This document shows positions 9,123 to 42,449 of a stretch of 64,000 bases of DNA, piece after piece. The position numbers and the translations under genes were made by a program. Numbering within the stretch: the first letter of the stretch is position 1; the number at the start of each line of letters is the position of its first letter. Source of the DNA: Polaribacter sp. Z022 (GTDB lineage Bacteria > Bacteroidota > Bacteroidia > Flavobacteriales > Flavobacteriaceae); NCBI RefSeq assembly GCF_023555495.1, contig NZ_JALCZO010000001.1:558001-622000 (forward strand). Direction: 5' to 3'. The notes below the pieces were generated by a model that was given only the letters and a program-made list of their open reading frames with translations, ran no database searches and was not told where the DNA came from.

Positions 9123-10112
9123 ATGAGTTTTAAAAAAAGTTTTATATACCTTTTTTCTTTTTTTCTAATAGCTTCTTGTGGTACAAGTGTAACAATAGAA
9201 GATGAAATAATTGATGAAGTAGAAGTAGATGAAGGAGATAATGGAACAGGAAACACTGGTTCTACAGGTCCAAATTCAGATTATCCATTATCAGACCAAT
9301 CAAATACAGGTAAATGGGTATTAAATAAAGAAGTAAGTGATGAGTTTGATACTGGTACTTTAGATGAAGATAAATGGCATATTCAAGGAAAAAATGGCGT
9401 GTATCAATCTAATTTTATTGGTAGAGCACCCTCTCAATTTTCTATAAATAATGCTATTGTAGAAGATGAAAAGCTAAAAATTATAACAAAATGGGAACCA
9501 GATTTCGATTTTCATCCAACAAAAACTCAAACCGTAAATGGTAAAGTTTATAAATATGAAAATATAACTACTGCAGCTGTAATTAGTAAAAAACAGTTTA
9601 GGTATGGTTATATGGAAATTAAATGTAAATCAGCAAATGCACCAATAACTAGTTCTTTTTGGACAACAGGAAAAGGAACATCAGAATTAGATATGTTTGA
9701 AATGTTTGGTGGTCATAAATCTAATGCAGCTTGGAAAAAAAGATTAAAATTTAATATAATTAGCTGGGATAAAGACAATCCTTTTTACCAACCAGTTTAT
9801 AAAGGTCCAGTGCATACAAGAAATATACAAGCTAAAGAAAATACTGCAGATGATTTTCATGTATATGGTTTTGATTGGACACCAGAATATATTAAAGTTT
9901 ATATAGATGGTGTTTTACATGAAAATGGAACAATATTAAAATCTGAATTAACAAAAAACGGAACAGAACCAGATAGATGGGTTACAGATTCTGATTATTG
10001 GATTTGGTTTGATTCTGAAACTTTTCCTTGGTTAGGTTTACCAACAGCATCAGATTTAGTAGAACCTGCAGAATATCAAATTGAGTATATAAGAGTTTGG
10101 CAAAAAAGCTAG
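9123..10112 (+). CDS. GH16 endo-galactanase lipoprotein, second copy
   Basis: A 330-residue lipoprotein. The ATG at 9123 is chosen over the upstream TTG at 9102, because it follows the previous stop by 5 bp and gives the signal peptide ending LIASCGT. An acidic linker (about 25-55, rich in Glu, Asp, Gly and Thr) precedes the GH16 domain. The catalytic signature ELDMFE gives Glu188, Asp190 and Glu193. It is far closer to the GH16 domain of the fusion protein at 16166-20002 (shared runs such as YQSNFIGR, KKQFxYGYMEIK, FDSETFPWLGLP) than to its upstream neighbour. A duplication within the locus is therefore likely. It probably cuts the same galactan at the cell surface. Confidence 0.85.
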   Translation: MSFKKSFIYLFSFFLIASCGTSVTIEDEIIDEVEVDEGDNGTGNTGSTGPNSDYPLSDQSNTGKWVLNKEVSDEFDTGTLDEDKWHIQGKNGVYQSNFIGRAPSQFSINNAIVEDEKLKIITKWEPDFDFHPTKTQTVNGKVYKYENITTAAVISKKQFRYGYMEIKCKSANAPITSSFWTTGKGTSELDMFEMFGGHKSNAAWKKRLKFNIISWDKDNPFYQPVYKGPVHTRNIQAKENTADDFHVYGFDWTPEYIKVYIDGVLHENGTILKSELTKNGTEPDRWVTDSDYWIWFDSETFPWLGLPTASDLVEPAEYQIEYIRVWQKS

Positions 10113-10592: not shown

Positions 10593-12092
10593 ATGAAGCA
10601 AATTAATTTATTAAAAGCTTTTTTACTGCTAGTTTTTGTAGGTTTAGTTTTAGGGTGTACTTCTACAAAAGACAAAACTGCTGTAAAAAACCCTAAAAAG
10701 GAGCATAAAAATATTATTACTCCAAGTAAACCAAATATATTGGTGATTCTGTGTGATGATTTAGGGTATTCAGATGTAGGTTTTAATGGTTCTAAAGATA
10801 TTCCTACTCCTGCTTTAGATGGTCTAGCAAAAGACGGAACAATTTTTACATCTGCCTATGTAACCCACCCTTTTTGTGGTCCTAGTAGAGCAGGTTTAAT
10901 GACAGGTGTTTATCCACATAGAATAGGTGCTCAATTTAATTTACCTCCAAATAGTGGAGAAACAATTAAAAAAGGTATTTCTCTTAAAGAAACTTTTATT
11001 AGTAAAGTTTTAGATAAAGAAGGTTATAATACAGGTTTAATAGGTAAGTGGCACTTAGGTTCTAATGCAGAATTTCATCCAAATGTTAGAGGTTTTGATG
11101 ATTTCTATGGTTTTTTAGGAGGAGGACATAATTATTTTCCAGAACAATATAGAGCTGCTTATAAAAGACAATCTGAAAGTGGAAGAAAAATTATTTGGGA
11201 TTATTTACATCCTTTAGAGCATAATGGAAAACAAATTAAAGAAACAGAGTATTTAACAGATGCTTTTTCTAGAGAAGCAGTACGTTTTATTACAGATGCA
11301 GGTAAAACTAAAGATCCGTTCTTTTTATATCTTTCATACAATGCACCTCACACACCTTTAGAAGCAAAAGAAGAAGATCTTAAGTTGTTTTCTCATATAA
11401 AAGATAAAAAGAGAAGAACTTATGCTGCTATGGTTTATGCTGTTGATAGGGGTGTTAAAAAGATTAAACAATCTTTAATAGATTCTGGTCAATTAGATAA
11501 TACTTTAATTGTTTTCTTTAGTGATAATGGTGGTAAAACAAAAGCAGGTGCAACTAATTATCCTTTAAAAGATGGAAAAGGAAGTGCTTATGAAGGTGGT
11601 TATAGAGTACCAATGTTTTTTCATTGGCCAAAAGTTGTACCAGCAGGAGAAAAATTTGATTTCCCAGTATCTGCATTAGATTTTTATCCAACTTTTGCAA
11701 AATTAGCAGGAGCAAAAATTCCTGCAACTAAAAAGTTAGATGGAAAAGATATTTGGAATAATTTTATAACTAAAACAGATTCTTATAAAGACGATAACAT
11801 CTTTGTATTGCGTCACAGAAATGGTTTTAGTGATGTTGGGGTTAGAAAAAACGAATGGAAAGCTGTTAAAGCTTACAATCAAAAATGGAAGCTATTTAAT
11901 ATTGAAAATGATATGGCAGAAAGCAATGATGTAAGTAGTAAATATCCAGAAATTTTAAAAGACTTAGTTAAAGATGCAGCAGAATGGAGTGTTACTCATA
12001 AACAACCAGAATGGTGGCATAATGTAAAAACGGGTAAAGAATGGAAAGCTCTTGAGATGCCAAAATTTGATAAAACTTTTAAAATAGAGTAA
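10593..12092 (+). CDS. S1-family (formylglycine) sulfatase, lipoprotein
   Basis: A 499-residue lipoprotein (signal ending LVLGCTS). Core motifs: metal ligands Asp55-Asp56 (CDDLGYSD), the formylglycine site C95-G-P-S-R, GKWHLG, and the metal pair Asp311-Asn312 (SDNGG). Cys95 would be converted to formylglycine, and calcium positions the sulfate ester for hydrolysis. It closely resembles the sulfatase at 46758-48239 and the N-terminal half of the fusion at 16166-20002: all contain a GFxxFFGFLGGGxNYF-like loop. It is therefore one of a set of duplicated galactan sulfatases. Position specificity (C4 or C2 of galactose, or C2 of anhydro-galactose) cannot be read from sequence. It closes the first GH16 operon. 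Confidence 0.85.
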   Translation: MKQINLLKAFLLLVFVGLVLGCTSTKDKTAVKNPKKEHKNIITPSKPNILVILCDDLGYSDVGFNGSKDIPTPALDGLAKDGTIFTSAYVTHPFCGPSRAGLMTGVYPHRIGAQFNLPPNSGETIKKGISLKETFISKVLDKEGYNTGLIGKWHLGSNAEFHPNVRGFDDFYGFLGGGHNYFPEQYRAAYKRQSESGRKIIWDYLHPLEHNGKQIKETEYLTDAFSREAVRFITDAGKTKDPFFLYLSYNAPHTPLEAKEEDLKLFSHIKDKKRRTYAAMVYAVDRGVKKIKQSLIDSGQLDNTLIVFFSDNGGKTKAGATNYPLKDGKGSAYEGGYRVPMFFHWPKVVPAGEKFDFPVSALDFYPTFAKLAGAKIPATKKLDGKDIWNNFITKTDSYKDDNIFVLRHRNGFSDVGVRKNEWKAVKAYNQKWKLFNIENDMAESNDVSSKYPEILKDLVKDAAEWSVTHKQPEWWHNVKTGKEWKALEMPKFDKTFKIE

Positions 12093-14936: not shown

Positions 14937-15077
14937 CTAAAATATTAATGTTTTCTGAGTTAAAAACATTAATTTATCTTAAAATGAGGGTATTTTAGAA
15001 TAATTTCGGATAATATTTGTTAAAAAATTGTCACTTATTATGCTTAAATGAATATTTTGTTATATTTGTTAGTAATG

Positions 15078-15938
15078 AAGTTAGTTTTAAAGAAATCAGA
15101 CACACACACAAATGAAAAACTAAACATTTACACTAGAGATGTTCCTTGTTTAGACGCTGCATGGCATTATCATAAAGAATTTGAGTTGTTATACATATCT
15201 CAAAGTAATGGTATTCGTTTTGTTGGAGATAGTGTGGCTCCTTTTTTACCTGGAGATTTAGTTTTAGTAGGTTCTTATTTACCTCATCTTTGGAGAAACG
15301 ACCCTTCATACTACAAAGAAGAAAGTACGCAAGAAGTTAAAACAATAGTTACAAAATTTACTGATGATTTTTTAGGGAATGATATTTTGCAATTACCCGA
15401 TTTTTTTGAAGTTAAAAAATTACTTGAAGAATGTAAGTTAGGTATATTTTTTGGTAAGCAAATTAGTAAAGCTCTTCATAATGATTTAATGTTACTACCT
15501 ACTTTGTCATCAACAGAAAAACACATTAAACTTTTAAGTATTTTACATAAATTATCTTTAGTAGATAAAAAAGAAAGAACTATTTTGTCTTCTTCAGACA
15601 TGAGACAAACCACTACAGAAAGTTCTGAAAGGATAGATACTGTGTTAAAATACATTTCAGATAATTATGCTTCTAGTATTAGTTTAGATGATATTTCTAA
15701 TGTAGCTTGTATGACTACAAATTCTTTTTGTCGTTTTTTTAAGAAAATGACCAACAAGTCTTTTACACAGTTTTTAAACGAAATTCGTATTAGAAATGCA
15801 TCAAGAATACTTGTGCAGCAAACACTTCCTGTATCAGAAGTTTGTTATATAGTTGGTTTTAATTCTATAACTAACTTTAATAAACAGTTTAAACAAATTA
15901 TGGGGTCTACACCTAAAAAGTTTAGAGAAGCAATCTAG
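15078..15938 (+). CDS. AraC-family regulator 2 of the locus (tandem paralogue)
   Basis: 286 residues from ATG 15078. This start is preferred over the in-frame ATG at 15048 because MKLVLKKSDT aligns with the start of its paralogue (MRLVLKQSDT), and a TATATTTG box (15061-15068) overlaps the extra codons. It has a cupin-like sensor (WHYHKEFELLYIS ... FLPGDLVLVGSYLPHLW) and a C-terminal AraC double HTH. The AraC half differs only slightly from regulator 1 (SFCRFFKKMTNKSFTQFLNE and IRIRNASRILVQQ are identical). The middle of the sensor (about 100-180) has diverged. The two probably read the same DNA sites but different ligands or ligand concentrations. Confidence 0.85.
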   Translation, partial: KLVLKKSDTHTNEKLNIYTRDVPCLDAAWHYHKEFELLYISQSNGIRFVGDSVAPFLPGDLVLVGSYLPHLWRNDPSYYKEESTQEVKTIVTKFTDDFLGNDILQLPDFFEVKKLLEECKLGIFFGKQISKALHNDLMLLPTLSSTEKHIKLLSILHKLSLVDKKERTILSSSDMRQTTTESSERIDTVLKYISDNYASSISLDDISNVACMTTNSFCRFFKKMTNKSFTQFLNEIRIRNASRILVQQTLPVSEVCYIVGFNSITNFNKQFKQIMGSTPKKFREAI

Positions 15939-16060: not shown

Positions 16061-16126
16061 TGATAAGAGTTTACTATTTGTGGTTAATATTAGCTTAATT
16101 CTTTGCTAGATTAACCTTTAATTTTG
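16061..16126 (+). promoter_or_regulatory. Operator/promoter 2 (degenerate half-sites) before the fusion enzyme
   Basis: TGATAAGA (16061-16068) and TGGTTAAT (16081-16088) are 20 bp apart. A perfect -7 box TAATTTTG follows at 16119-16126, 38 bp after the second half-site starts. It fits the common architecture less exactly than the others. Confidence 0.4.
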
Positions 16127-16165: not shown

Positions 16166-19100
16166 ATGAAAACTCACTTTTTAAAATATTGTGTATTTCT
16201 TTTTATAATAGTGCTATCTGTAAGCAATTACGCTCAAACTAAAGGAACAAGACCTAATGTAATTTTAATCCTTGCAGATGATTTAGGATATGCAGATGTT
16301 GGTTTTAATAGAGATGCTAGTTTTCCATCAGAAAGAGGTGTTATTCCAACACCTAATATAGATGCTTTGGCAAACAATGGTATAATTTTAAAAAATTCGC
16401 ATGTTGTTCATCCTTTTTGTGGTCCAAGTAGAGTAGCACTTTTAACAGGTATTTATCCTCACAGAATTGGAGCTCAGTACAATTTACCTAACAATATAAC
16501 ATCTACTTTAGGTGTTCCTCAAAACGAAACTTATTTTTCTAAAGTTTTACAAGATTCAGGATACAATACTTCTGCAATTGGTAAATGGCATTTAGGTTTC
16601 GAAGATGGTAAATACCAACCATTAGACAGAGGTTTTGATCATTTCTTCGGATTTTTAGGAGGAGGTAAAAATTATTTCGAAAGTATTTATGAAGATTCGT
16701 TTTACAACAGATTAGGTGGTTCTAACCCTGTAACTAATGAGTATCAAGATCCATTACAAAGAAATAGATCTTATGTAAATAGAAATGAATACAGCAATGC
16801 TACAGATGAAGATTATTTAACAGATGTACTTACAGATAATGCAATTCAATATATTAATGAAAACAAAGGGAAATCAGACCCTTTCTTTATGTATTTAGCT
16901 TATAATGCACCACACACACCATTACAAGCAACCCAAGCAGAAATTGCGCAATTTAAAATTGATAATCCTAATTTTGAGAGTAATTTAAGAGCAAGTAGTT
17001 ATTTACAAAACTCAGATCCTGTAAATAAATTAACAACTCAGGCAGAAAAAGATGCAAAAATAGAAGAGTTTGTACAAGCTCGTTTAATTTATGCAACAAT
17101 GACTGTTAATATGGATAAAAATATTGGTAGAGTTGTAGATGAACTTAAAAAAGATATCAATGTATTTAATAATACAGTTATAATATTTTTAAGTGATAAT
17201 GGCGGTTATAGATGGAGTAAAGGAGCAGATAATTTTCCATTACAACAACAAAAAGGAAGTGTTTTAGAAGGTGGTCATAAAGTACCAATGTTTGTAAGTT
17301 GGCCAAATAAAATTACATCTCCAAGTACATACAACTATCAAGTTAGTTCGTTAGATATTTATCCAACTCTTGCAAATTTGGCAGGAGCTACAATTCCAGC
17401 AAATAAAACAATAGATGGTAAAGACTTTATGGATAAAATTATTGCTGGTCAAAAAGTAAGACAAGATGATGAACCTTTGTATGCTATAAGACCGCAAAAC
17501 GGATTTCATAATGGAGGTCTTGCTTCTTACCCTTGGAAAATTGTTAAAACTGCAAATAATGGAAAATGGAGATTGTATAATATTTTAACAGATCCAGGAG
17601 AAACTACAGATTTAAGAAGCACAGAACCAAATGCAGAACAAATAATAAATAATCTTTTAGATAAAGCAGAAACTTTATTTTCAGAATTTAAAAATGTAAA
17701 ACCAGCTTGGTATGATAATAGTAATTATGATAGTAATGGTGATGGAGTAGGAGATATTCATGTTCATGGTCCATTGTGGAATAATGGAACATTACCAGGT
17801 TATGACAGACTTTTTGAAAGACCTTTTGATGATTCAACTAAAGATAATTACCCATTATCAGATCAAAACAATGAAGGTAATTGGGTTTTAAACACAGAAA
17901 TTTCAGATGAATTTGAAGCAAGTTCTTTAAATGAAGATCAATGGTTAATACAAGGTAGAAATGGAGAATACCAATCTAATTTTATTGGAAGATCTCCTGC
18001 TCAATTTTCAACAGAAAATGCAATTTTAGAAGATGGGAAACTTAAAATTTTAACCAAATGGGATCCAACTTATAATTTTACAAACGATTCTGGTGGAAAT
18101 ATGTTAGGAGTTTATAATGGAGTAAGTACACCAATAACAACAGCAGCTGTAATTAGTAAAAAACAATTTCAATATGGTTATATGGAAATTAAATCTAAAG
18201 CAGCTAATGCAGAAATAACAAGCTCATTTTGGACGACTGGTCCTGGTCCTGGTAAACCAGGTGGAGCATCAGAATTAGATATGTTTGAAATGTTTGGAGG
18301 ACATAAAACAAATGATGCTTGGAAAAAAAGATTAAAATTTAATATGATTAGTTGGGACCCTAACAATTCTATTAAGCAAGCTGCAACAGCAGCAGGACAA
18401 TCTGTAGGAACAACACATACTAGAAATATACAAGCAGATAATAACACAGCAGATGATTTTCATGTATATGGTTTTGAGTGGACTGCAGATTATATTAAAG
18501 TTTATATAGATGGTGTATTACATCCAGAAGGAACCATTTTAAAATCTGAATTGACTAATAATGGAGCAGATCCTGATAGATGGGTAACAGACGTTCCTTA
18601 TTGGGTTTGGTTCGATTCAGAAACATTTCCTTGGTTAGGTTTACCAGATGCTTCAGATTTACAAACCCCTGCAGAATATCAAATAGAGTATATTAGAGTT
18701 TGGCAAAAAAAACCAGATGAAATTACTATAAAAGGAACTGCAGATGCTATAGAAGGAACTAAAGATGGTGTTTTTACAATTGCGTTATCTAATGGAGAAG
18801 TTGCAACAGAAAATATTAATGTAACTTATACTGTTGGCGGAACTGCTACTGAAGGTACAGATTATACTACTATACAAAGAACAGCCACAATTGCTAGCGG
18901 AACAAATTCTGTGCAAATAACTATTGATGCTACAGAAGACAATGTAGATGAAAACTCAGAAACAGTTATCATTACCTTGCAATCATCTAGCACTAAAACA
19001 ATAAATACAACTCCAGCAAGCATTAATATATCAGATGTTATTGAATCTACAACTTTAATAGCAGGAGACATTGCCATTCTTGGTTGGAGAGCAAATAGAG

Positions 19101-20002
19101 GTAAGTTAGCATTTATGTTGTTAAAAGATATTACAGCAGCAACTCAAATTTCAATTTCTAATAGAACCTGGAATAATTCTCTAAATACTTTTACAGGAGA
19201 TTATACTGTAGATGATATATGGACTTGGACAGCTGGTGCAGCTTTTAGTACTGGAGACATATTAATATTAGATACAGATGGAAAAGTAAAAAAAGTTGAA
19301 GGAGATGCAACTGTTGTTGTTGGTACTACTTCTCATGATTATACAGGAAAAGTATCTCAAACAAGTGATGGTGATTTTGATATTTCAACCAATGGAGAAG
19401 GTATTTTAATATTTCAATCAACTAGTCCTTTTCAGTTGCCAACAAATGCAAATTCTACCTCTTGGATAACAGGTTTAAATACTGCTTTAGGATGGGGTTC
19501 AGGTGGAGGTAATTCTGCATGTGCATTACCAACAGCTTTAACTAATGGTGTAAATGCTAATGATGTTGGTGAAAAACATGATTTTGGAGTTTATAAAGGA
19601 GCTTTATCTGGTACACCAGCTCAATTAAGGGCAAGTATTAACAATACTAATAATTGGGTTTTTTCTGAAGATACAGAATATAATTTATGGAGTTTTAATG
19701 AAACATATTCAGGTATTTCTGGAGACATTGGTGTTTCTGGTACTTTAAATGTTTCTAATCAAACTTCCTTAAAATTTAACGTTTTTCCAAATCCAGTAAA
19801 AGACTACTTTTCGCTTAATTTTGGAGATTTTAAAAACAAAATAGAAATAGATGTTTTTTCTTCTACAGGACAATTAATTAAAACCGTAGAAACCAAAAAC
19901 ACAAACACTAAAATTAATGTATCTAATTTACCATCAGGTATATATGTATTAAAAATAAAATCAGATAAAGATTTTACAATGAAAAAAATTATCAAGTTAT
20001 AA
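16166..20002 (+). CDS. Bifunctional S1 sulfatase-GH16 hydrolase with Calx-beta and T9SS domains
   Basis: A 1278-residue secreted fusion. Order: signal peptide (1-23); S1 sulfatase (about 28-545; DD in LADDLGYAD, formylglycine site C85-G-P-S-R, SDNGG); GH16 (about 560-850; ELDMFE with Glu703, Asp705, Glu708). Then come a Calx-beta domain (about 855-950), an unidentified lamin-tail-like beta domain (about 955-1190) and a C-terminal T9SS sorting domain (about 1205-1278, FPNP and GIYVLKI). It should be exported by type IX secretion and fixed at or released from the surface. There it would desulfate and cut the same galactan chain. The GH16 half closely resembles the enzyme at 9123, and the sulfatase half those at 10593 and 46758. 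The frame is unbroken, so this is a genuine fusion. Confidence 0.9.
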   Translation: MKTHFLKYCVFLFIIVLSVSNYAQTKGTRPNVILILADDLGYADVGFNRDASFPSERGVIPTPNIDALANNGIILKNSHVVHPFCGPSRVALLTGIYPHRIGAQYNLPNNITSTLGVPQNETYFSKVLQDSGYNTSAIGKWHLGFEDGKYQPLDRGFDHFFGFLGGGKNYFESIYEDSFYNRLGGSNPVTNEYQDPLQRNRSYVNRNEYSNATDEDYLTDVLTDNAIQYINENKGKSDPFFMYLAYNAPHTPLQATQAEIAQFKIDNPNFESNLRASSYLQNSDPVNKLTTQAEKDAKIEEFVQARLIYATMTVNMDKNIGRVVDELKKDINVFNNTVIIFLSDNGGYRWSKGADNFPLQQQKGSVLEGGHKVPMFVSWPNKITSPSTYNYQVSSLDIYPTLANLAGATIPANKTIDGKDFMDKIIAGQKVRQDDEPLYAIRPQNGFHNGGLASYPWKIVKTANNGKWRLYNILTDPGETTDLRSTEPNAEQIINNLLDKAETLFSEFKNVKPAWYDNSNYDSNGDGVGDIHVHGPLWNNGTLPGYDRLFERPFDDSTKDNYPLSDQNNEGNWVLNTEISDEFEASSLNEDQWLIQGRNGEYQSNFIGRSPAQFSTENAILEDGKLKILTKWDPTYNFTNDSGGNMLGVYNGVSTPITTAAVISKKQFQYGYMEIKSKAANAEITSSFWTTGPGPGKPGGASELDMFEMFGGHKTNDAWKKRLKFNMISWDPNNSIKQAATAAGQSVGTTHTRNIQADNNTADDFHVYGFEWTADYIKVYIDGVLHPEGTILKSELTNNGADPDRWVTDVPYWVWFDSETFPWLGLPDASDLQTPAEYQIEYIRVWQKKPDEITIKGTADAIEGTKDGVFTIALSNGEVATENINVTYTVGGTATEGTDYTTIQRTATIASGTNSVQITIDATEDNVDENSETVIITLQSSSTKTINTTPASINISDVIESTTLIAGDIAILGWRANRGKLAFMLLKDITAATQISISNRTWNNSLNTFTGDYTVDDIWTWTAGAAFSTGDILILDTDGKVKKVEGDATVVVGTTSHDYTGKVSQTSDGDFDISTNGEGILIFQSTSPFQLPTNANSTSWITGLNTALGWGSGGGNSACALPTALTNGVNANDVGEKHDFGVYKGALSGTPAQLRASINNTNNWVFSEDTEYNLWSFNETYSGISGDIGVSGTLNVSNQTSLKFNVFPNPVKDYFSLNFGDFKNKIEIDVFSSTGQLIKTVETKNTNTKINVSNLPSGIYVLKIKSDKDFTMKKIIKL

Positions 20003-20230: not shown

Positions 20231-23200
20231 ATGAGTAAAAAACTATTTTTTAATAGTAGTTCTTATTTATCCTTAATTAAAAAAAATAGGATTTTAGGAC
20301 TATTACTAATTTGTTTAATCGCCTTTCCAATGTTTGCAAATGCAAATTCATTAGATAATAGCGATAATAATGAAACTTTATTTCAGCAAACTATTTCTGG
20401 AACAGTTTCAGACGAAGGTGGCCCTATACCAGGGGTAAGTGTTCAGGTAAAAGGAAGCACAACAGGAACAGTTACAGATTTTGATGGTAAATATTCTTTA
20501 TCAACAAAAGATGCTAATGCTATTTTAATATTTTCATATATAGGTTATAAAACTAAAGAAGTTCCAGCTAATGGAAAGACAACTTTAGATGTTACTTTAG
20601 TAGCAGATGTTGCAAGTTTAGACGAGGTAGTTATTGTAGGATATACTTCTAAAAAACGTGGTGAAACTACAGGTTCTGTAAGTACTTTAAAAGCAGAAGA
20701 AATAGAAAACACTTCTAATAGAGAAGTTGCTAAATCACTTTCAGGAAGAGTTACAGGTTTAATTGTTTCAGATAGAGGTGGTTATCCTGGTTCTAATAAC
20801 GATGTTACCTTATTAATTAGAGGTCAATCTACTTTAAACAATAATGCTCCTTTAATTTTAATTGATGGAGTACAAACAGGTATTGGTACTTTTAACCAAT
20901 TAGCGCCACAAGACATTGCAAATTTAAGTATTCTTAAAGATGGAGCTGCTGCTGTTTATGGTAATAGAGCTGCAAATGGTGTAATTATAGTTACAACAAA
21001 AAGAGGTAAAACAGGTAAAGCAAAAATTAATGTTTCTTCTTCTTACAGTATTTCTTCATTTTCTGCAACTCCTAAACTTATGAATTCAGAACAATTTTCT
21101 ATTTACGAAAATGAAATATTGTTAAGAAACGGAGGGTCTACTTCAGATGTAGCTTACCATACTCCAGATGAAATTAGTAAGTATACAACTACAGATTGGT
21201 CTGCATTAACATTCGCAAAAACAGCTCCAGAATCTAGAAATTCTATTTCAATTTCTGGTGGAACTGATAAAACAAAATACTTTGTTAGTGGAGATATGAT
21301 GGACAGAAAAGGAATGTTCGCATCAGGAGATTTAGGTTTTAAACAAAGTCAAATAAGATCTAATTTAGATGTTAAAATTACTGACGATGTAAAATTAAGT
21401 ATAGATTTATCTGGAAGATTTGCAGAAAACAAAGAACCAGGTGTTAATGCTAATTTTATTTATAAGCACATTTATACAAATTTACCAACAGAAGTAGGTT
21501 TACACCCAAATGGTTTACCTGCTTGGGGTGGAGAAAATGGAGCAAATCCTTATATAATGTCTAGTAATGATTCTGGTTTTAATGAAGTTACTACAAATGA
21601 TTTAAGAGGTAGATTTGCAATAGACTGGAAATTAGATAAAGTTCTTAAAGGATTAAGTTTTAATAGTTATTTAGGTATTAGAAGAATGAATAACAATCAA
21701 AAATCTTTTTATACTCCTTGGACTTATTATAATTATGATGAAACTACCAAAGAATATAGTCCTCAAACAGGATTCTCTCAAAGTGGACAAGAAAATATTT
21801 TAAGAGAAACTTTTTGGAGATTTGACGAAGCATTAGTAAACGCTTCTTTTAGATATAACAATACATTTAATGATGTACATTCTATTAGTGCTTTAGCTGC
21901 TATTGAGCAACAAACAACTACAACAAGTACTTTTTATGCTCAAGCAACTAGTTTACCTTCTACAGATTTACCATATTTATTTGCAGGTGACCCAGAAACA
22001 GCTACTAATGCAGGTACAGCAGGAGAAGATGCACTTTTAAGTTATTTTGGTACTTTATCTTATGATTACAATAAAAAATACTTTGTAGATCTTACTTTAC
22101 GTAGAGATGGATCTAGTAGATTTGGTCCAGGAAAACAGTTTGGTAATTTTTATAGTGTTGGTGGTAACTGGGCAATTGGTAAAGAAAGTTTCTTAGAAGA
22201 TGTTTCTTGGTTAGATGCTCTTACAATTAGAGGTTCTCATGCAGTTATGGGTAATGATAGAATACCAGGTTTTCAACACTTAGCACAATTTTCTTACGGA
22301 AATACAAATCCAAATAATGCTAGACCAAATTATTATGTATTTGGTGAGTCTGGTGCAGTTTTTAACGGTTATAGAACAGGTGTTGCTCCAAACCCTAATG
22401 TAACTTGGGAAACAGCTACAATGCAAAACGTTGCAGTAGCTTTTGAAATGTTTGATAGAAGATTTACTGGTGAGGTAAACTTTTACAAACAAAAAAGAGA
22501 AGATATCTTAGTAGATAATAGTGGTGTTGTTCCAGATTTTACAGGAGTAGTTTTACCAGATGAAAACTTAGGAAGAGTAGATAGTCATGGTGTAGAAATT
22601 ACATTAGGATGGGCAGATCAAATTGGTGAAGTTTCTTATAACCTTGGGTTTAACTTAACTCAAGCAAAAAACGAAGTAATATACTTACCACAACCAGCTA
22701 ATACTCCAGTTGCATTAAGACAAGAAGGTTCACAAATTGGATCAATTGTAGTTGCACCAACAGATGGTATTTTTAGAGATCAAGCACAGGTAGATGCAAC
22801 TGCTGTTAAATTAGCAGGTACTGTAGAGGGAGAGCCTATTTATAGAGATACAAATGGAGATTTAAAAATAGATGATAAAGATTTTATAAGAATTAATTCT
22901 TCTAATATACCAGAAATACAATATGGTTTTACAGGAGGATTAAATTATAAAAACTTCAATTTTAATTTCTTATTACAAGGTCAAGCTAAAGCAGATATGT
23001 TAGTGTTTTTTGATCAAAATGGAGCAAAACCAGAACACGTATTTACACAAAGATGGACACCAGAAAATAGAAATTCTAGATACCCAAGAGCATTTGGGTT
23101 AAATGATAGTTACAGTGGAATTCAAAACGGAGACCCTGATAATTTTGTAGGAGCAGATTTATGGTTACATGATGCATCTTTCTTAAGATTAAAAGAAATT

Positions 23201-23401
23201 GAAGTTGGATATACTTTATCTAAAGAGAAAACAACATTTGCAGACATTAAGTTTTTTGCAAGAGGGTTTAACTTGTTAACAATGTTTTCAGATATTCAAA
23301 AGTTAGGTTTAGATCCAGAAGCAACTGGTTATAATAACTTTAGAGGAGCAACATATCCATCTTTAAAGATGTATACGTTTGGTTTAAACTTTACTTTTTA
23401 A
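20231..23401 (+). CDS. susC: SusC-like TonB-dependent oligosaccharide importer
   Basis: A 1056-residue outer-membrane receptor. It has a long N-terminal leader with the hydrophobic signal at about 22-41, then a carboxypeptidase-regulatory-like domain (about 50-130, ISGTVSDEGGPIPGVSV). A DEVVIVGYTS motif near 138, a plug domain (about 145-255, with LLIRGQSTL and LKDGAAAVYGNRAANGVIIVTT) and a 22-strand barrel ending in phenylalanine (FGLNFTF) complete it. It forms the import pore with the SusD-like lipoprotein encoded 18 bp downstream and would bring sulfated galactan oligosaccharides into the periplasm. It is the only SusC in the window. Confidence 0.9.
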   Translation: MSKKLFFNSSSYLSLIKKNRILGLLLICLIAFPMFANANSLDNSDNNETLFQQTISGTVSDEGGPIPGVSVQVKGSTTGTVTDFDGKYSLSTKDANAILIFSYIGYKTKEVPANGKTTLDVTLVADVASLDEVVIVGYTSKKRGETTGSVSTLKAEEIENTSNREVAKSLSGRVTGLIVSDRGGYPGSNNDVTLLIRGQSTLNNNAPLILIDGVQTGIGTFNQLAPQDIANLSILKDGAAAVYGNRAANGVIIVTTKRGKTGKAKINVSSSYSISSFSATPKLMNSEQFSIYENEILLRNGGSTSDVAYHTPDEISKYTTTDWSALTFAKTAPESRNSISISGGTDKTKYFVSGDMMDRKGMFASGDLGFKQSQIRSNLDVKITDDVKLSIDLSGRFAENKEPGVNANFIYKHIYTNLPTEVGLHPNGLPAWGGENGANPYIMSSNDSGFNEVTTNDLRGRFAIDWKLDKVLKGLSFNSYLGIRRMNNNQKSFYTPWTYYNYDETTKEYSPQTGFSQSGQENILRETFWRFDEALVNASFRYNNTFNDVHSISALAAIEQQTTTTSTFYAQATSLPSTDLPYLFAGDPETATNAGTAGEDALLSYFGTLSYDYNKKYFVDLTLRRDGSSRFGPGKQFGNFYSVGGNWAIGKESFLEDVSWLDALTIRGSHAVMGNDRIPGFQHLAQFSYGNTNPNNARPNYYVFGESGAVFNGYRTGVAPNPNVTWETATMQNVAVAFEMFDRRFTGEVNFYKQKREDILVDNSGVVPDFTGVVLPDENLGRVDSHGVEITLGWADQIGEVSYNLGFNLTQAKNEVIYLPQPANTPVALRQEGSQIGSIVVAPTDGIFRDQAQVDATAVKLAGTVEGEPIYRDTNGDLKIDDKDFIRINSSNIPEIQYGFTGGLNYKNFNFNFLLQGQAKADMLVFFDQNGAKPEHVFTQRWTPENRNSRYPRAFGLNDSYSGIQNGDPDNFVGADLWLHDASFLRLKEIEVGYTLSKEKTTFADIKFFARGFNLLTMFSDIQKLGLDPEATGYNNFRGATYPSLKMYTFGLNFTF

Positions 23402-23419: not shown

Positions 23420-25144
23420 ATGAAAAAAATAAAACAGATATATTTAATAATAGCCATTGGTTTTTTAACCATGACTAGTTGTGAAGATGTGTTGGATACT
23501 ACCAATTTAGGTGCATATCCAGAAGATATTGTATTCAGTGATCCTGATCAGTTAGAAAGAGTAGTGTTTTCAGCATATAACAGTACAGAAGGTTGGGCAC
23601 TTAACAAAACAATATGGTGGGCAAGAAGATTTAACGTAGAAGTAGGTTCTTTTGAAGCTAAATTTAATTTTAGAGACCTAGATAGAATGCGTTTAAGAGG
23701 TAATGGTTGGAACGCCTTAAATATGGGAGATTTTAGAAATAAATGGAGAGATTATTTCAGATTTGTTAATGAAATTAACCAATTTTTAGACAAAGTAGAT
23801 ACTAGTGAAGCAATGAATGTAGATGCTGATAAAGTGAATAGCTTAAAAGCAGAAATGAAGTTCTTACGTGCTAATATCTACACAAAGCTAATTAAAATGC
23901 ATGGAGGTGTACCTATTTTTAATACTGCTTTTGGTTTAGACTCAGAGTTTAATCTTCCAAGAAATTCTTACGAAGAATGTGTTGCTTTTATTGTAAAAGA
24001 TTTAGATGAAGCTGCTGCTGTATTACCTGTAACAAGACCAGCTGCAGAATTTGGTAGAGCAACAAAATTAGCTGCTTTAGCTGTAAAATCTAGAACATTA
24101 TTGTTTGCTGCTAGTAAATTACACGATCCTGCAACTGCTCCAAATGGACCAATGTATGATTATAATGTAGCTACAAAGTGGCAAGATGCTGCAGATGCTG
24201 CAAAAGCTGTAATAGATTTAGTAGGCGCTAGAGATTTAATTGCTACTCCAGATGCAGAAGCATATCAAAAATTATTTTTATCAGCAAATCAAGATATCCT
24301 TTTTGCTAGACCTTATGGAAGTGATTTATATGAATTTGGTTTAGATGTAAATTCATTACCAGATCAAACACAATCACCTAGTGGTTATGGTGGTTGGGCT
24401 TTATCATCTCCAACTCATAATTTTGCTTTAGAATTCAATATGGCAGATGGAACAACAACATCAGGAGCAACTTTTGATGCTGCAAATCCAAATGCAAATA
24501 GAGAAATGAGATATTATGCAGACTTAAATTTTCAAGGTGCTAATTTTAGAGGTCGTCTTGTAGATTATGCATTAGCTACAGATCCTTCTCAAACAGATGG
24601 TTTTGATTCACCAAATGGATCAAAAGTAGGAGGTTCAGGAAATGATTTACACTCTTCTAAAACAGGGTATAATATTAGAAAATTTCAAAATGAAAACCTT
24701 GCTACTTTAACAGAAACTACACAAGGGCGTCCATATATTTTATATCGTTTAGCAGAAATTTATTTAAACTATGCAGAAGCTTTATATAACGTTGGTGGTA
24801 AAGAAACAGAAGCAAAACTTTACTTAAATAAAGTTTCTACAAGAGCTTTACAACCTGCTATTACTTTAAGTGGTAGTGCGTTATTAGAAGCAATTAAAAG
24901 AGAAAGACGTATAGAATTAGCTTTTGAAGGTCATAACTTTTGGGATGAAAGAAGATGGATGAATCCAGCTAATTTAGGATTTGATGTAAAAGGTTTAAAA
25001 TGGGAAAAAGGTGCTGGTGGAGTATTATCTAATACAGAGTATACAGTTGTAACTAGACCTTGGTTTGATAAACATTATTATTTACCAATTCCTGATCAAG
25101 AAATACAAAAAGCTCCAGCATTAATTCAGAATGATGGATATTAA
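23420..25144 (+). CDS. susD: SusD-like glycan-binding lipoprotein
   Basis: A 574-residue surface lipoprotein with signal ending LTMTSCED. A helical TPR-rich N-terminal SusD half (about 25-330) and a C-terminal RagB/SusD half follow, containing RPYILYRLAEIYLNYAEAL and IKRERRIELAFEGHNFWDERRW (read as two separate motifs), both classic for the family. It acts as the lid of the SusC pore and binds the oligosaccharide. It is co-transcribed with susC and is followed by a terminator hairpin. The identity of the bound glycan is inferred from the neighbouring hydrolases and sulfatases. Confidence 0.9.
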   Translation: MKKIKQIYLIIAIGFLTMTSCEDVLDTTNLGAYPEDIVFSDPDQLERVVFSAYNSTEGWALNKTIWWARRFNVEVGSFEAKFNFRDLDRMRLRGNGWNALNMGDFRNKWRDYFRFVNEINQFLDKVDTSEAMNVDADKVNSLKAEMKFLRANIYTKLIKMHGGVPIFNTAFGLDSEFNLPRNSYEECVAFIVKDLDEAAAVLPVTRPAAEFGRATKLAALAVKSRTLLFAASKLHDPATAPNGPMYDYNVATKWQDAADAAKAVIDLVGARDLIATPDAEAYQKLFLSANQDILFARPYGSDLYEFGLDVNSLPDQTQSPSGYGGWALSSPTHNFALEFNMADGTTTSGATFDAANPNANREMRYYADLNFQGANFRGRLVDYALATDPSQTDGFDSPNGSKVGGSGNDLHSSKTGYNIRKFQNENLATLTETTQGRPYILYRLAEIYLNYAEALYNVGGKETEAKLYLNKVSTRALQPAITLSGSALLEAIKRERRIELAFEGHNFWDERRWMNPANLGFDVKGLKWEKGAGGVLSNTEYTVVTRPWFDKHYYLPIPDQEIQKAPALIQNDGY

Positions 25145-31512: not shown

Positions 31513-32931
31513 ATGAAAAAAATAATTATTTTACTTGTTTTAAGCTTTTCTTTAACAAGTTGCGCTCAAAAAAAACCTAATATTATTTTCTTGTTTTCTG
31601 ATGATGCAGGATATGAAGATTTTGGTTTTCAGGGTAGTGATATAATGATTACACCTAATTTAGATAAACTAGCAAAAGACGGAATTAAATTTACACAAGG
31701 TTATGTAACAGACGCTACTTGTGGTCCTTCTAGAGCAGGTTTAATTACAGGAAAATATCAACAAAAATTTGGATATCAAGAAATTAATGTTCCTAATTAT
31801 ATGAGTAAAAACTCTAAATTTTTAGGAGATGATATGGGGTTGCCTACAGATCAAAAAACAATTGCAGATTATCTTAAAAAATTAGGATATAAAAGTGCTG
31901 TTTATGGAAAATGGCATTTAGGTAATGCAGATCGTTTTCATCCATTAAAAAGAGGTTTTGATGAGTTTTATGGTTTTAGAGGAGGAGCAAGAAGTTATTT
32001 CCCTTACAAAAACTTTAAAGGAATACACCATGATAATAAAATGGAAAGAAACTTTGGAAACTTTGAAGAGCCTAATGGATATGTAACTGATGTTTTAGCT
32101 GATGAAGCAATTTCTTTTATCGAAAAAAATAAAAAGAATCCTTTCTTTATTTACTTAGCATTTAACGCAGTTCACACTCCTATGCATGCAACTAAAGAAG
32201 ATTTAGCAAAATTTCCTAATCTTACAGGAAAAAGACAACAAGTTGCTGCTATGACTTTAGCTTTAGATAGAGCTTGTGGTAAAGTTTTAGACAAACTAAA
32301 AGAGTTAGGTTTAGATGAAAATACAATAATTGTTTTTTCTAATGATAATGGAGGACCAACAGATAAAAATGCTTCAGTAAATTTACCATTAAGTGGTACA
32401 AAATCTAATCACTTAGAAGGAGGAATTAGAGTACCGTATTTAATAAAATGGCCTAAGAAATTTAAAGCAGGTCAAGAATACAATTACCCTGTAAGTACTT
32501 TTGATTTGTTGCCAACTTTTTATGCTGCTGGAGGAGGAGATGTAAAAGACTTAGATAAGGTAGATGGTGTAAACTTAATTCCTTTTGTTGATGGATCTAA
32601 CAAAGCAAGACCACATAAATATTTATTTTGGAAAAAAGAAGCACGTGCAGTTTGTAGAGATAACGATTGGAAATTAATTCGTTTTGCAGATAGACCAGCA
32701 GAATTATACGATTTATCTAAAGATATTACAGAACAAAACAATTTAGCATCTAAAGAACCAGAACGTTTAAAAACGATGTTTAAAAAATTGTTTGAATGGG
32801 AACTAACTCAAGAACGCCCATTATGGATGTTACAACAACGTTTTGAAAAATATGACATTAATAGAATGGATCGTTATAGAACACCAGAGTTGGTTAAAAA
32901 AGAAATGAAAAAATACAATAAAAAGAAGTAA
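31513..32931 (+). CDS. S1 sulfatase lipoprotein
   Basis: 472 residues; the lipobox is TSCAQ at about residue 18. Core motifs: FSDDAGYED, formylglycine site C70-[24 protein letters not shown] and SNDNGG. The [10 protein letters not shown] loop and [14 protein letters not shown] segment differ from the GFLGGGHNYF group (10593, 46758, 60802), so it belongs to another S1 subfamily and probably has another regiospecificity. It is located in the periplasm or on the surface, 34 bp after the sugar porter gene. The substrate is inferred to be sulfated galactan oligosaccharide. Confidence 0.85.
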
Positions 32932-32994
32932 TAAATTCTTCATTTTAATTTACCTAAAAATAAACGAACACAACAACAATTAAAAACCAACACA

Positions 32995-34476
32995 TTGAAA
33001 ATAATTTATAAAATATTAATTGTAATAATTTTCTTCTTAGGATATAGTTGTACAAATTCTACATCACAAAATAAAGAAGAAAGTAAAATTGAAATACCTG
33101 TTTCTAAATTTTATCCAGCATCAGACTTAGAAAATAAAGAAGGTTGGGTATTAAATGAAGAGGTTTCTGATGAATTTGAAGGAACAGAAATAGACAAAGA
33201 AAAATGGTTTGTAGAAGGTCAAGATGGAGATTATTATATCTGGAAAGGTAGAGCTCCTTCTCAATATGCACCACATAATGTTGTTGTAAAAGATGGTAAA
33301 TTAATTTTAAAAACCCAATGGGAGCCAGATTTTGCGTTTGCAAAAGAAGCATATGCAGATGGTGCAAATAAAGACACTTATGGTGTTCATGAAGGGAAAC
33401 CTTTACCTGTTACTACTGCAGCAATTGTTAGTAAAAAACGATTTTTAAATGGATATATGGAAATCAAATCTAAGTCTCCACATGCAGCAATGACAGCAGC
33501 TTTTTGGGCAATAGGTTTTGAGCAAGAATTAGACATGTATGAGCAAATGGGGGTTCCAAAAATTGCTAAAGAAGGTTCTATAGATAAATATACAAACAGA
33601 ACAGCAGTGCACGATTGGAGTCCACCATCTACAAGACCAACTAAAGCATTTGGGTATGATGAAATATTACCATATGTTACTTCAGAAGAATTTCATGTTT
33701 ATGGTGTAGAATGGGGAGAAGATTATTTAAAAATTTTTAGAGATGGTAAATTTGTACACGGATTTACGCAAGATGAGTTAGGTATAGATTGGGTATTAAA
33801 CAACCCAATGGAAATTTGGGTAGACTCAGAAATATTTAAATGGATAGGAGTTCCTCATAAGGAAGAATTGCCAGCAACTTTTGAGGCAGAATATGTAAGA
33901 GTATGGCAAAAACCTTCTGATAATTTATTGGTAAAAGATAGAGCTTTTTATGGTTTTGAAGGACCAATTTTATTTGAAGAAAACCCTAGACCTTTAAAAA
34001 TGGTACCAGAAGATGCAGTAGCTAACGATTATCAAAAGTTTTGGTTGTTTAGTGAAGGATCTGAAAAATATTTAAAAATTACTGAAGGTCATTATAATAG
34101 TGGTGTAGAAGCTTTACAGTTTTTTGGATATGGCAAAAATGAGCACTTAGAAGTAGATAAAGTACAAGCAAAAACACCAGAAGGTTCTTTAAATCTTCCT
34201 GCAGGAGAATATAATTTATCAATGAAACTTTGGTTAGACCAAGGAAGAACTACAGATTCTATACATGTTACTTTAATGAACCCTAAAACAGAATTAGTAT
34301 TATCTGGATTAAAAAAATTACCTAGAAAAGAATGGGTAACTATTAAAACAAAAGTTTCAAGAAAAGAAGCATCAGCAGTTAATGATGGTATGATTATAGA
34401 AATAAGAAAAGAAGATTTACCAGAAACAAAAGCGGTAAAATTGTTTATAGACGATATCGTTATCAAGAAGAATTAA
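32995..34476 (+). CDS. GH16 endo-galactanase with C-terminal accessory domain, lipoprotein
   Basis: 493 residues starting at TTG 32995. No ATG occurs before residue 150, and the TTG gives a perfect lipoprotein signal (KILIVIIFFLGYSC). The GH16 domain spans about 40-305 with catalytic ELDMYE (Glu178, Asp180, Glu183). A C-terminal beta-sandwich (about 320-493) follows, ending VKLFIDDIVIKKN, which looks like a carbohydrate-binding domain of unassigned family. This is the only stand-alone GH16 here with an accessory domain. It diverges from the other three around the active site (QELDMYEQMG), suggesting preference for a different sulfation pattern. Confidence 0.85.
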   Translation: MKIIYKILIVIIFFLGYSCTNSTSQNKEESKIEIPVSKFYPASDLENKEGWVLNEEVSDEFEGTEIDKEKWFVEGQDGDYYIWKGRAPSQYAPHNVVVKDGKLILKTQWEPDFAFAKEAYADGANKDTYGVHEGKPLPVTTAAIVSKKRFLNGYMEIKSKSPHAAMTAAFWAIGFEQELDMYEQMGVPKIAKEGSIDKYTNRTAVHDWSPPSTRPTKAFGYDEILPYVTSEEFHVYGVEWGEDYLKIFRDGKFVHGFTQDELGIDWVLNNPMEIWVDSEIFKWIGVPHKEELPATFEAEYVRVWQKPSDNLLVKDRAFYGFEGPILFEENPRPLKMVPEDAVANDYQKFWLFSEGSEKYLKITEGHYNSGVEALQFFGYGKNEHLEVDKVQAKTPEGSLNLPAGEYNLSMKLWLDQGRTTDSIHVTLMNPKTELVLSGLKKLPRKEWVTIKTKVSRKEASAVNDGMIIEIRKEDLPETKAVKLFIDDIVIKKN

Positions 34477-40057: not shown

Positions 40058-42439
40058 ATGATTCAAAAAAAGAAGTTTAATCTTGTAAAAAGCCTACTTT
40101 TTGTTTTTACAATTGTGTTTTTTATGTCTTGTGGTGAAGAAAATCCGCTTACAGCTGAAGCATTAAATAAAATAGACAAACTAGAAAGTTTAATGGATAA
40201 AGCTCAGTCTAATTCTATTGATGTAACTAGAGAAGAAACCACACTTTGGTTTGCTAAAGAGTTTTTAAAATTTGCAGATTATGATGAAGCTCACAAAGAA
40301 GATGTAGAAAAATTATTTGGTTATTATGCTCCATTATCGGCAGATAAAAAGAAAACCGCAGAAGAATTACCAGATTTTGAAAGAGGAAAAGTCATTGAGA
40401 TTTTAGATAAATCTATCAACGATTTAGAACAATTAATTGCTGGTAAAAGAACAAGAAGACCTGTTTCTAAAGTAGATTGGGAAAACATCGAAGTTGCAAA
40501 AGACATGTTTTTAAGTCATGGTAAACCTGTTTTCTTATACGATTATTTTTCTAAAACTGTAGGTAAACAACTTACAAACAAGAGCGTTTATAACGATCAT
40601 TTGGGTAATATTTATCATGGAGGTCAAAGACTGTATGATACAAATATGGATAGAGCAATCAATCCATATATTTTAAATGAAGATGGTACTTTTAATGAAA
40701 AAATAGACCTTATTACTGAGATTCCAGATACTAATGTTGGTTTTTTAATTCTTTGGAATATGGGTATGCCAGATTGGGTACACAAACAAGATCCAGACAT
40801 TGCAAAAGGACGTTCTTTGTTTACAGGTTTTGATATTGATAATCCTTTAGCCAGAAAAGTTTGGAGTGATGTTATTCAAAAAGCTGGAGCGCTTACAAAA
40901 GGTAAAAAAGTAACACAAATGGGGTATATTCTATCAAACGAACCTCACTGGTATTCAGAAAAAAATCATTGGACAGCTCGTTTTCATGAAATGACACAGC
41001 TTTCTTCTCATACCATTAACAAATTAAAAAAATGGTTAGAAGTTAAATATAATGGAAACATTAATAGCCTAAATAAAAACTGGAATACCTCTTTTAAAGA
41101 TTTTGCTTCGGTAGAAATTGAAGTGCCAATTGATAGAGCAAAAAGAGGAACACCAATTTGGTATGACTGGTGTAGATATAACATGGACAGAAGTATAGAT
41201 TGGTTTACATATTTACAAGGAGAATTGCATAAAACCAATCCAGATGCAGATACAAGTATCAAAATTATGCCAAATATGTTTACAGAAAATGCACGTTCTC
41301 ATGGTATAGATACAGAAGCGTTAACGGATTTAACATCTATGATTGGTAATGATGCAAAAATGAGAGAGCGTGATATTAGAAGTAAAAAACCAGAAGAATG
41401 GGAAGAAAGATATTCTTATTTCTGGGAAGAAATGAGTGTTGCTTATGATTTTATGGAATCTGTTTCTCCAGAAAAGATTCATTTTAATTCAGAATCACAC
41501 TTTTTATCTGCTTCTTGGTGGCGTAAATTAGATACCTCTGCAGATTATGTAAGAAGCACAACTTGGTTGGCAACTTTACATGGTATGGATGCACAATTAG
41601 CATGGTTTTGGGCTAGAGATCCAGATGGTTCTCCAGAAGATAGATTAGAAGGAGAATTAAATTTTTTCGATCCTGCATTAGCGGGTTCTATAGCTGGTTC
41701 TGTAAATCAACAGCCACAAGTTGCTAATGAATATACGCAGGTTATGATGGATTTAAATTCATATTCTGAAGAAATTTTTGCGTTAAGAAAACAAAGAAGA
41801 CCTATAAGATTATTCCACTCAGAAGCTTCAGCAATTAATAAGAAATTCCATATGAAACAACAATTTCATATGTATGAATCTTTATATTTTGAAGGATTTC
41901 CTGTAGGTTATGCAACTGAAAACATCATCAAAAAACAAGACAATTCATCTTGGGATGCTATTGTAGTTTACAAAACACCTTATGTAACTGAAGGAGAGTT
42001 TAACGCTTTACAAAGTTATTTAAACCAAGGAGGAACTGTAATTGTAGATAATAAAAACAGTTTGTCTTTAAATGAATATGGTCAAAAAAGAAGAGCATCT
42101 TTATCTAAAGGAAAAGGTAACTTAATTATTATTGGAGGAAAAGCATCTGTTGAAGACATTCAAAAAATAGCTTTAGAAAATATTAAAGAACATTTACCTG
42201 CAATTGCTTTAAAAGAAGATAATGGAACACATCATAAAGGTTGTGTTTGGAGGGTAGCAAAAAACCCTAAAGGAGGTTACGTTGTAAACATTTTAAATGT
42301 TGGAAAAAACAATGCTAAATTAAACCTAACTCTTAAAAATGGTGAAAAAGCAACTGTTACTAATATGATGAATGGTCAGAATTTAGGAAATGATTTTGAG
42401 CTGAAATCTAATGGTGTAATTTTAGTGGAAGTAAAATAA
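40058..42439 (+). CDS. GH167-like clan-A exo-glycosidase, lipoprotein (copy 1)
   Basis: 793 residues; signal ending FFMSCGEE. A helical N-terminal domain (about 25-150) precedes a TIM barrel (about 160-560). Putative acid/base Glu295 (SNEPHW, the Asn-Glu pair of clan GH-A) and nucleophile Glu479 (FNSESHF) follow. Next come a GH42-like trimerisation/flavodoxin-type domain (about 590-710, SYLNQGGTVIVD) and a small beta domain (about 730-793). Distant likeness to GH42 beta-galactosidase plus the setting suggests GH167, which releases neocarrabiose units from beta-carrageenan-type chains. The family assignment is tentative. It is tandem with a close paralogue 10 bp downstream. Confidence 0.65.
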   Translation: MIQKKKFNLVKSLLFVFTIVFFMSCGEENPLTAEALNKIDKLESLMDKAQSNSIDVTREETTLWFAKEFLKFADYDEAHKEDVEKLFGYYAPLSADKKKTAEELPDFERGKVIEILDKSINDLEQLIAGKRTRRPVSKVDWENIEVAKDMFLSHGKPVFLYDYFSKTVGKQLTNKSVYNDHLGNIYHGGQRLYDTNMDRAINPYILNEDGTFNEKIDLITEIPDTNVGFLILWNMGMPDWVHKQDPDIAKGRSLFTGFDIDNPLARKVWSDVIQKAGALTKGKKVTQMGYILSNEPHWYSEKNHWTARFHEMTQLSSHTINKLKKWLEVKYNGNINSLNKNWNTSFKDFASVEIEVPIDRAKRGTPIWYDWCRYNMDRSIDWFTYLQGELHKTNPDADTSIKIMPNMFTENARSHGIDTEALTDLTSMIGNDAKMRERDIRSKKPEEWEERYSYFWEEMSVAYDFMESVSPEKIHFNSESHFLSASWWRKLDTSADYVRSTTWLATLHGMDAQLAWFWARDPDGSPEDRLEGELNFFDPALAGSIAGSVNQQPQVANEYTQVMMDLNSYSEEIFALRKQRRPIRLFHSEASAINKKFHMKQQFHMYESLYFEGFPVGYATENIIKKQDNSSWDAIVVYKTPYVTEGEFNALQSYLNQGGTVIVDNKNSLSLNEYGQKRRASLSKGKGNLIIIGGKASVEDIQKIALENIKEHLPAIALKEDNGTHHKGCVWRVAKNPKGGYVVNILNVGKNNAKLNLTLKNGEKATVTNMMNGQNLGNDFELKSNGVILVEVK

Positions 42440-42449
42440 GAATAAAAAA

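Follow-up and report, generated by a model that had tools for sequence, protein, structure and literature searches.

Enzymes released from the cell diffuse apart, which makes it a real question why bacteria fuse those that carry out sequential steps. The question is raised by one gene of Polaribacter sp. Z022, a member of the Flavobacteriaceae. The gene lies at 16166–20002 (+) of the window analysed here, a stretch of 64,000 nucleotides (NCBI RefSeq assembly GCF_023555495.1, contig NZ_JALCZO010000001.1, positions 558,001 to 622,000 of the forward strand), and it encodes in one polypeptide an S1_19 sulfatase, a glycoside hydrolase of family 16 (GH16), a Calx-beta domain, a further beta domain and a sorting tail of the type IX secretion system (T9SS). 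It is read here as a lineage-specific fusion whose S1_19 half probably desulfates, and whose GH16_13 half then cuts, one carrageenan chain.

Architecture of the fused gene

The gene is a single open frame of 1278 codons plus stop, with no internal stop. Pfam matches follow one another along it as Sulfatase (residues 30–408, E 1.2e-56), GH16 (659–785, 4.9e-10), Calx-beta (864–957, 1.5e-07) and Por_Secre_tail (1206–1276, 6.3e-16); NCBIfam also matches the sulfatase, the GH16 and the T9SS tail, Calx-beta being matched by Pfam only. An initial annotation, made from the sequence of the window alone, had described one frame joining sulfatase, GH16, Calx-beta domain, beta domain and T9SS tail, with an intact C85-G-P-S-R and an intact ELDMFE, and the frame and domain matches confirm that description. 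The sulfatase cysteine, precursor of formylglycine, is C85 (codon 16418–16420 (+)) within HPFCGPSR, in keeping with C-x-P-S-R, and the GH16 triad is E703/D705/E708 within SELDMFE (ExDxxE at 18272–18289 (+)), with an ExxxW motif at E819–W823.

On the + strand, the parts are arranged as follows. A hydrophobic N-terminus (by eye) carries a putative signal peptide of about residues 1–24 (16166–16237), and the S1_19 module spans residues 25–554 (16238–17827). A joint at residues 555–560 (17828–17845) leads from the sulfatase C-terminus to the mature N-terminus of the GH16 part, whose GH16_13 domain, a predicted beta,kappa-carrageenase, covers residues 561–852 (17846–18721). Then come the Calx-beta domain (864–957; 18755–19036), the beta domain without a Pfam family (962–1190; 19049–19735) and the T9SS type A sorting tail (19781–19999). 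The sorting domain is matched by both PF18962 (6.3e-16) and TIGR04183 (4.8e-13), and the assembly contains GldK and GldJ; the fusion protein is predicted to be secreted.

Residues 25–1203 were modelled with AlphaFold2 on a 35-row alignment, with a mean predicted local distance difference test score (pLDDT) of 79 and a predicted template modelling score (pTM) of 0.57. The sulfatase and GH16 halves are mostly confident, and confidence is low around the linkers and elsewhere. The first PDB fold matches of the model are ZgCgsA (9hh2, 9hh4, 9hh3), Ps i-CgsB (6bia, 6b0j), which we take to be S1_19A of Pseudoalteromonas PS47, and Cgbk16A (9ijc, 9int). Domain search and structure prediction, proposed as checks in the initial annotation, thus recover both halves as S1_19 and GH16_13.

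For the sulfatase half, seven PDB sequences reach E ≤ 1e-60, and these, like the top nine fold matches, belong to ZgCgsA, PsS1_19B and Ps i-CgsB; the subfamily of ZgCgsA and PsS1_19B is taken from PDB titles, not from SulfAtlas. Its best match in both sequence and fold is ZgCgsA of Zobellia galactanivorans (PDB 9hh2, S1_19), from which the fused module differs in being about 38–39% identical (fold search) and in carrying inserts and a C-terminal extension. The GH16 half matches Cgbk16A of Wenyingzhuangia fucanilytica (9ijc/9int) at E 5.1e-123 with about 67–72% identity, and this resemblance assigns it to GH16_13, the subfamily of beta,kappa-carrageenases and furcellaranases. The catalytic triad is the same in both; Cgbk16A, however, is a stand-alone protein of 321 residues, and the fused domain has additional loops just before and after the catalytic motif.

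Pfam does not recognize the beta domain (best E 0.14), and Foldseek returned nothing for it at E ≤ 0.001 (model mean pLDDT 61). In VIA-align, lamin immunoglobulin (Ig)-like domains stand within the first ten rows at Z 5.3–6.1, below the trustworthy level, and a lamin-tail-like Ig fold is proposed only tentatively.

Origin of the two modules

The sulfatase module was counted at E ≤ 1e-120 in the 166 genomes of one GTDB genus, and six hold it. A frame of 1285 codons occurs only in the genome of the window; the frames of the other five measure 985–1001 codons. In all five of these genus-mates, namely G505 (stretch L105) and G489, G519, G481 and G454 (stretches L106–L109), two adjacent genes of the same direction occupy the locus after an AraC-type regulator, with a gap of about 5–20 bp between the stop of gene 1 and the start of gene 2. 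The regulator of the window, recognized by resemblance, lies at 15048–15938 (+). Gene 1 consists of GH16 and a T9SS tail, with Calx-beta and beta domain as well in four of the five but not in G505; gene 2 consists of S1_19, Calx-beta, the beta domain without Pfam family and a T9SS tail.

The flanks of the fusion correspond to those of the pair. Upstream, an element at 16061–16126 (+) is homologous to the region 5' of gene 1 in relatives: the match is present in L106, L108 and L109 (86% over 66 bp against L106 8672–8737) and absent from L105 and L107. Downstream, the flank of the fusion matches the flank of gene 2 in L106, L108 and L109, where relatives of a SusC-like transporter (20231–23401 (+)) and a SusD-like protein (23420–25144 (+)), both identified by eye, follow the locus as they do in the window; they are not found downstream in L105 or L107. 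Within the window, a 26-base core of the upstream element occurs once.

Each module can be traced to one gene of the pair. The fused GH16 is 83–87% identical to gene 1 of G489, G519, G481 and G454 and 69–74% identical to that of G505, compared with 72–73% for a separate GH16_13 paralogue of the window at 9123–10112 (+; Pfam, identity, tree). The fused sulfatase shares 71–76% identity with gene 2 in the five genus-mates, compared with about 40% for a separate S1_19 sulfatase at 10593–12092 (+; tree, PDB match). A loop insertion before the GH16 catalytic motif is common to the fusion and gene 1 of L106, L108 and L109, being shorter in L107, and a second GH16 insertion is shared by the fusion with gene 1 of L106 and L107.

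Trees built on selected rows (17, 19 and 16) agree with these identities. The fused GH16 falls within the gene-1 clade of L106–L109 (100/98), outside which the gene 1 of G505 stands; the fused sulfatase pairs with gene 2 of G505 (98/97); and the tail of the fusion groups with gene-1 tails (98/98). A grouping with gene-2 tails was rejected by the approximately unbiased (AU) test (p-AU 0.0158), the group having been named after inspection of the tree. Alignment with the relatives' genes places the joint between residues 554 and 561, since similarity to gene 2 runs to GYDRLFE at the end of the sulfatase and similarity to gene 1 sets in at about P-[FL]-S-D. The signal peptide (…SNYAQTxGTxPN, by eye) resembles that of gene 2, whereas the upstream element resembles the sequence of gene 1. 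Only three diagnostic sites follow residue 1200, two of them gene-2-like and one like neither gene; because these are too few, a late switch from gene 1 to gene 2 within the tail, which would make the final 20 or so residues gene-2-like, is only tentative.

Together, the alignments and trees show the fusion as the sulfatase module of gene 2 joined to the GH16–Calx-beta–beta-domain part of gene 1 minus its signal peptide. By the correspondence of its flanks, it sits in the place of the pair and replaces both genes, the GH16 now standing behind the sulfatase though gene 1 precedes gene 2. A duplication of the pair with subsequent deletions can be offered only as a speculative route. A scar of gene 1 just before the start codon of the fusion, hinted at by a BLAST extension, was rejected: in most of five comparisons it did not stand out, with 3–27 of 28 other starts and 119–1811 of 2000 shuffles reaching its score. 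The homology at 16061–16126 is a separate matter and was retained.

In G505, the sequence after gene 2 (L105 14152–14973) holds a piece of sulfatase that matches part of the fused sulfatase at 75.6% identity, and a separate T9SS-tail fragment. These are likely relics of a tandem duplication, and they suggest that duplications happen at this locus.

The pair extends beyond the genus. It is present in Flavivirga rizhaonensis (L047) and Hyunsoonleella aquatilis (L058), beside relatives of the window genes at 25260, 26549 and 27952, and in L051 it lacks the Calx and beta domains. The arrangement is not universal: Tamlana (L040) has gene 2 without a GH16 directly upstream, in G383 (L110) the GH16 lies about 0.7 kb off, and L072 and L111 show the reverse order, a sulfatase followed by a different GH16. 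The beta domain without Pfam family is itself common to both genes of the pair in several genera.

Further fusions were sought in overlapping sets of genomes, those for family and phylum being samples, with only the best few first-look candidates (4 to 13) scored per genome. At E ≤ 1e-20 the GH16 query, with the own genome counted in every set, matched 18 of 397 family, 9 of 166 genus and 3 of 395 phylum genomes; no other sulfatase–GH16 fusion appeared among these matches on frame length, with the content of the two longest remaining frames inspected as well. The sulfatase query matched 12 of 397 family genomes at E ≤ 1e-110, where the longest other frame has 1028 codons. Among 41 loci on GTDB r220 contigs, some of them cut by contig or flank ends, none has both domains in one frame, and 669 plasmid records match without any covering more than 80% of the query in one place. 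The search for the same architecture in other genomes that the initial annotation had called for therefore gave no second fusion in those sampled. On these comparisons, the fusion appears lineage-specific, and other Flavobacteriaceae are predicted to make two adjacent T9SS-tailed proteins.

Three candidates were set aside. A 1009-codon frame of the genome search, at 31513–34476 of the window, proved to be two genes with TAATAA between them: a sulfatase (31513–32931) and a GH16 (32995–34476) share a frame, with the GH16 start 63 bp beyond the first stop and two stop codons separating them. The GH16 frames of G072 and G036 (927–929 codons) continue in L029 with Ig-like (Big_2) and CBM_4_9 domains, L028 looking alike by eye, and no sulfatase was found in the parts examined. 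A Pontiella frame of 1314 codons (L061) carries Ig-like repeats and then a sulfatase, with no glycosidase by Pfam.

Probable sequential action and its alternatives

In the reading favoured here, the S1_19 half would remove galactose 4-sulfates in kappa-type carrageenan and so convert kappa into beta motifs. The GH16_13 half, expected to need an unsulfated galactose at subsite -1, would then hydrolyse the beta-1,4 linkage joining beta to kappa motifs. At the algal wall, fusion would keep both consecutive activities in one place, and the order of the domains, sulfatase before GH16, would be the order of action.

The initial annotation had proposed that a single protein could desulfate and cleave a galactan chain by turns outside the cell, and published enzymes make such steps plausible by analogy. 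GH16B of Pseudoalteromonas PS47 was inactive on kappa- and iota-carrageenan unless S1_19A had removed the 4-sulfates, and it shares about 78% identity with an enzyme classified as specific for beta-carrageenan; this dependence on S1_19A, as pretreatment or co-treatment, was shown for separate Pseudoalteromonas enzymes (PMC6923384). Cgbk16A cleaves between beta and kappa motifs (PMC8371452), and furcellaranases are argued to require an unsulfated galactose at -1, sensed by the glutamate of ExxxW (PMC6952198).

Several points weigh against this reading. GH16_13 enzymes can also cleave native furcellaran unaided by a sulfatase (PMC8371452). Within S1_19 the sulfatase half is divergent: it is 36–39% identical to ZgCgsA and Ps i-CgsB and carries roughly 40 inserted residues near 264–306, and its branch in the tree is about twice that of its sister (0.26 vs 0.12); galactose 4-sulfate as its target is therefore a guess from the subfamily. 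The protein encoded at 10593 is far closer to 6bia (639 bits) than the fused sulfatase is (349 bits), and given this and its divergence the fused sulfatase may prefer another motif. The fusion is known from one genome only.

Cysteine-type sulfatases require formylglycine, and its formation is unaccounted for here, since neither a formylglycine-generating enzyme (FGE) nor an anaerobic sulfatase-maturating enzyme (anSME) was found in the draft assembly. PF03781 matches only GldK and GldJ, which are gliding/T9SS parts; the best match to anSME (TIGR03942) reaches 20–21 bits against a cut-off of 349; and a query with the FGE-like protein of G489 retrieves only the GldK and GldJ places.

As to selection, ratios of non-synonymous to synonymous substitution rates (dN/dS) were estimated pairwise. 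Fused sulfatase and gene 2 give 0.16–0.21 in four comparisons, with 0.165 for an unfused control pair; fused GH16 and gene 1 give 0.09–0.16 in three, with 0.125 for the control; the tail gives 0.20–0.23 in three, without control. The values of both halves resemble those of the unfused pairs, but with dS near 1, synonymous sites near saturation and pre-fusion time included, they show only that neither half appears decayed.

The alternative that survives best, though we consider it unlikely, is that the two enzymes are fused but do not cooperate: each half would work by itself on a motif of its own (for the sulfatase, in oligosaccharides or a different galactan), and the fusion would be neutral, produced by rearrangement at a locus with a repeated tail. 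Such a history fits a fusion found in one of the six genus genomes that have the sulfatase, the linkers are predicted to be flexible, and the fragments after gene 2 of G505 are a sign of duplication at the locus. Moreover, both genes of four of the five genus-mates end in homologous Calx-beta–beta-domain–T9SS tails that could favour recombination. Both catalytic motifs are nevertheless intact, and dN/dS stays at about 0.09–0.23 in the compared parts. The two-gene adjacency, in addition, recurs in other genera, though not in all, which argues that the two activities are likely used together.

Less probable still is that the sulfatase half is not matured, so that the protein works as a GH16 enzyme with a large N-terminal extension. 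The assembly, 99.44% complete by estimate, has no canonical FGE or anSME, and the four single-contig genus-mates G489, G519, G481 and G454 (L149–L152) each carry an FGE-like match of 230–246 bits. The FGE-like proteins of G489 and G519 contain the motif C-H-E-S-Y-C, presumably the FGE active site. However, sulfatases remain numerous in the genome, and the ones inspected in the window retain a Cys-x-Pro/Ala-Ser-Arg-type motif by eye; the dN/dS of the sulfatase half shows no relaxation. Furthermore, no close FGE match was found in G505 (80% complete), nor in G398, G399 and G400, G398 having been covered only by the search with the G489 protein. The latter three genomes contain gene 2, and their lack of a close match suggests another maturation route or an unassembled gene. 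For the genome of the window, which is sulfatase-rich yet without detectable FGE or anSME, the pattern likewise suggests that the FGE gene is unassembled or that another route serves these bacteria.

An assembly chimera joining gene 2 to a GH16 copy is very improbable. The fusion does come from a single draft assembly (3.49 Mb, 48 contigs), but the window is internal to one contig and the reading frame is continuous across both joints. For 17600–18900, which spans both GH16 borders, the best other match in the assembly is 75% over 864 query bases, namely the GH16 at 9123, and a repeat-driven chimera is unlikely because the nearest other DNA copy is only that similar. Among the matches listed near both borders, all are short or diverged (for instance 60 bp at 76%), the longest exact one being 19 bp. 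Outside this locus, the genome offers no GH16 above 72% identity and no sulfatase match above 49%, leaving neither gene of the pair as a separate copy for a mis-join. The assembly error at about 17830 that the initial annotation had named as a way for its claim to fail is not indicated, and these observations argue strongly for a real fusion rather than an artefact.

That annotation had also suggested gene neighbours as the origin; the neighbouring origin stands, and the copies at 9123 (GH16) and 10593 (S1_19) are indeed present and adjacent and belong to the same two families, but there is practically no chance that they were the source, as both modules go with the other pair by identity and in the trees and the GH16 loop insertions agree with gene 1, not with 9123.

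Comparable systems and significance

Elsewhere in the window, an additional GH16 gene lies at 8098. Three similar proteins of about 790 residues, all beta-galactosidase-like by eye and two of them in tandem, are encoded at 40058–44825 and 52149–54521; they are possibly GH42-like enzymes of carrageenan clusters.

Fusion of a sulfatase with a glycosidase is already known as a kind. P36 of Formosa agariphila (GH78|S1_25, ulvan) is likewise one flavobacterial polypeptide that combines a sulfatase and a glycoside hydrolase for consecutive steps, but it couples desulfation of a terminal rhamnose to a rhamnosidase on ulvan oligosaccharides (PMC8511951), whereas the protein described here combines S1_19 with an endo-acting GH16 and would act on a galactan. 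Like that kind, it has its two catalytic domains in an unbroken frame and both motifs intact. In the PS47 system, an S1_19 renders carrageenan a substrate for an otherwise inactive GH16; its enzymes are separate, with GH16B predicted to be lipid-anchored in the periplasm (PMC6923384), in contrast to a single T9SS-tailed polypeptide here, and the fused sulfatase is only distantly similar to the S1_19A of PS47. Another flavobacterial protein, the multimodular CelAly of Aquimarina sp. 2-A2, unites two activities for one algal wall, a GH5 cellulase and a PL31 alginate lyase, but these are two depolymerases for two polymers, without a sulfatase (PMC13235733).

Among the titles and abstract openings searched in the openly accessible literature, and in passages of PMC6952198, PMC13168452, PMC8511951, PMC6923384 and PMC5698469, no S1_19–GH16 fusion was found, with CAZy and SulfAtlas outside the search. 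Relative to that literature, the combination of S1_19 and GH16_13 appears new.

For the question of why sequential steps become fused, this locus displays both the state before, two adjacent T9SS-tailed genes, and the state after, one gene, with parts that can be traced. Should the sulfatase supply the GH16 with its substrate, the protein would also serve, as a single component, to obtain defined oligosaccharides from kappa-carrageenan. A bolder version, possible but doubtful at present, makes it a class-switching carrageenase: the sulfatase, matured without a canonical FGE, would turn kappa-carrageenan, which GH16_13 alone would leave uncut, into a beta,kappa hybrid that the GH16 cuts locally, and linkage would outperform separate enzymes. 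If this is true, the unfused genus-mates would offer a ready before-and-after comparison.

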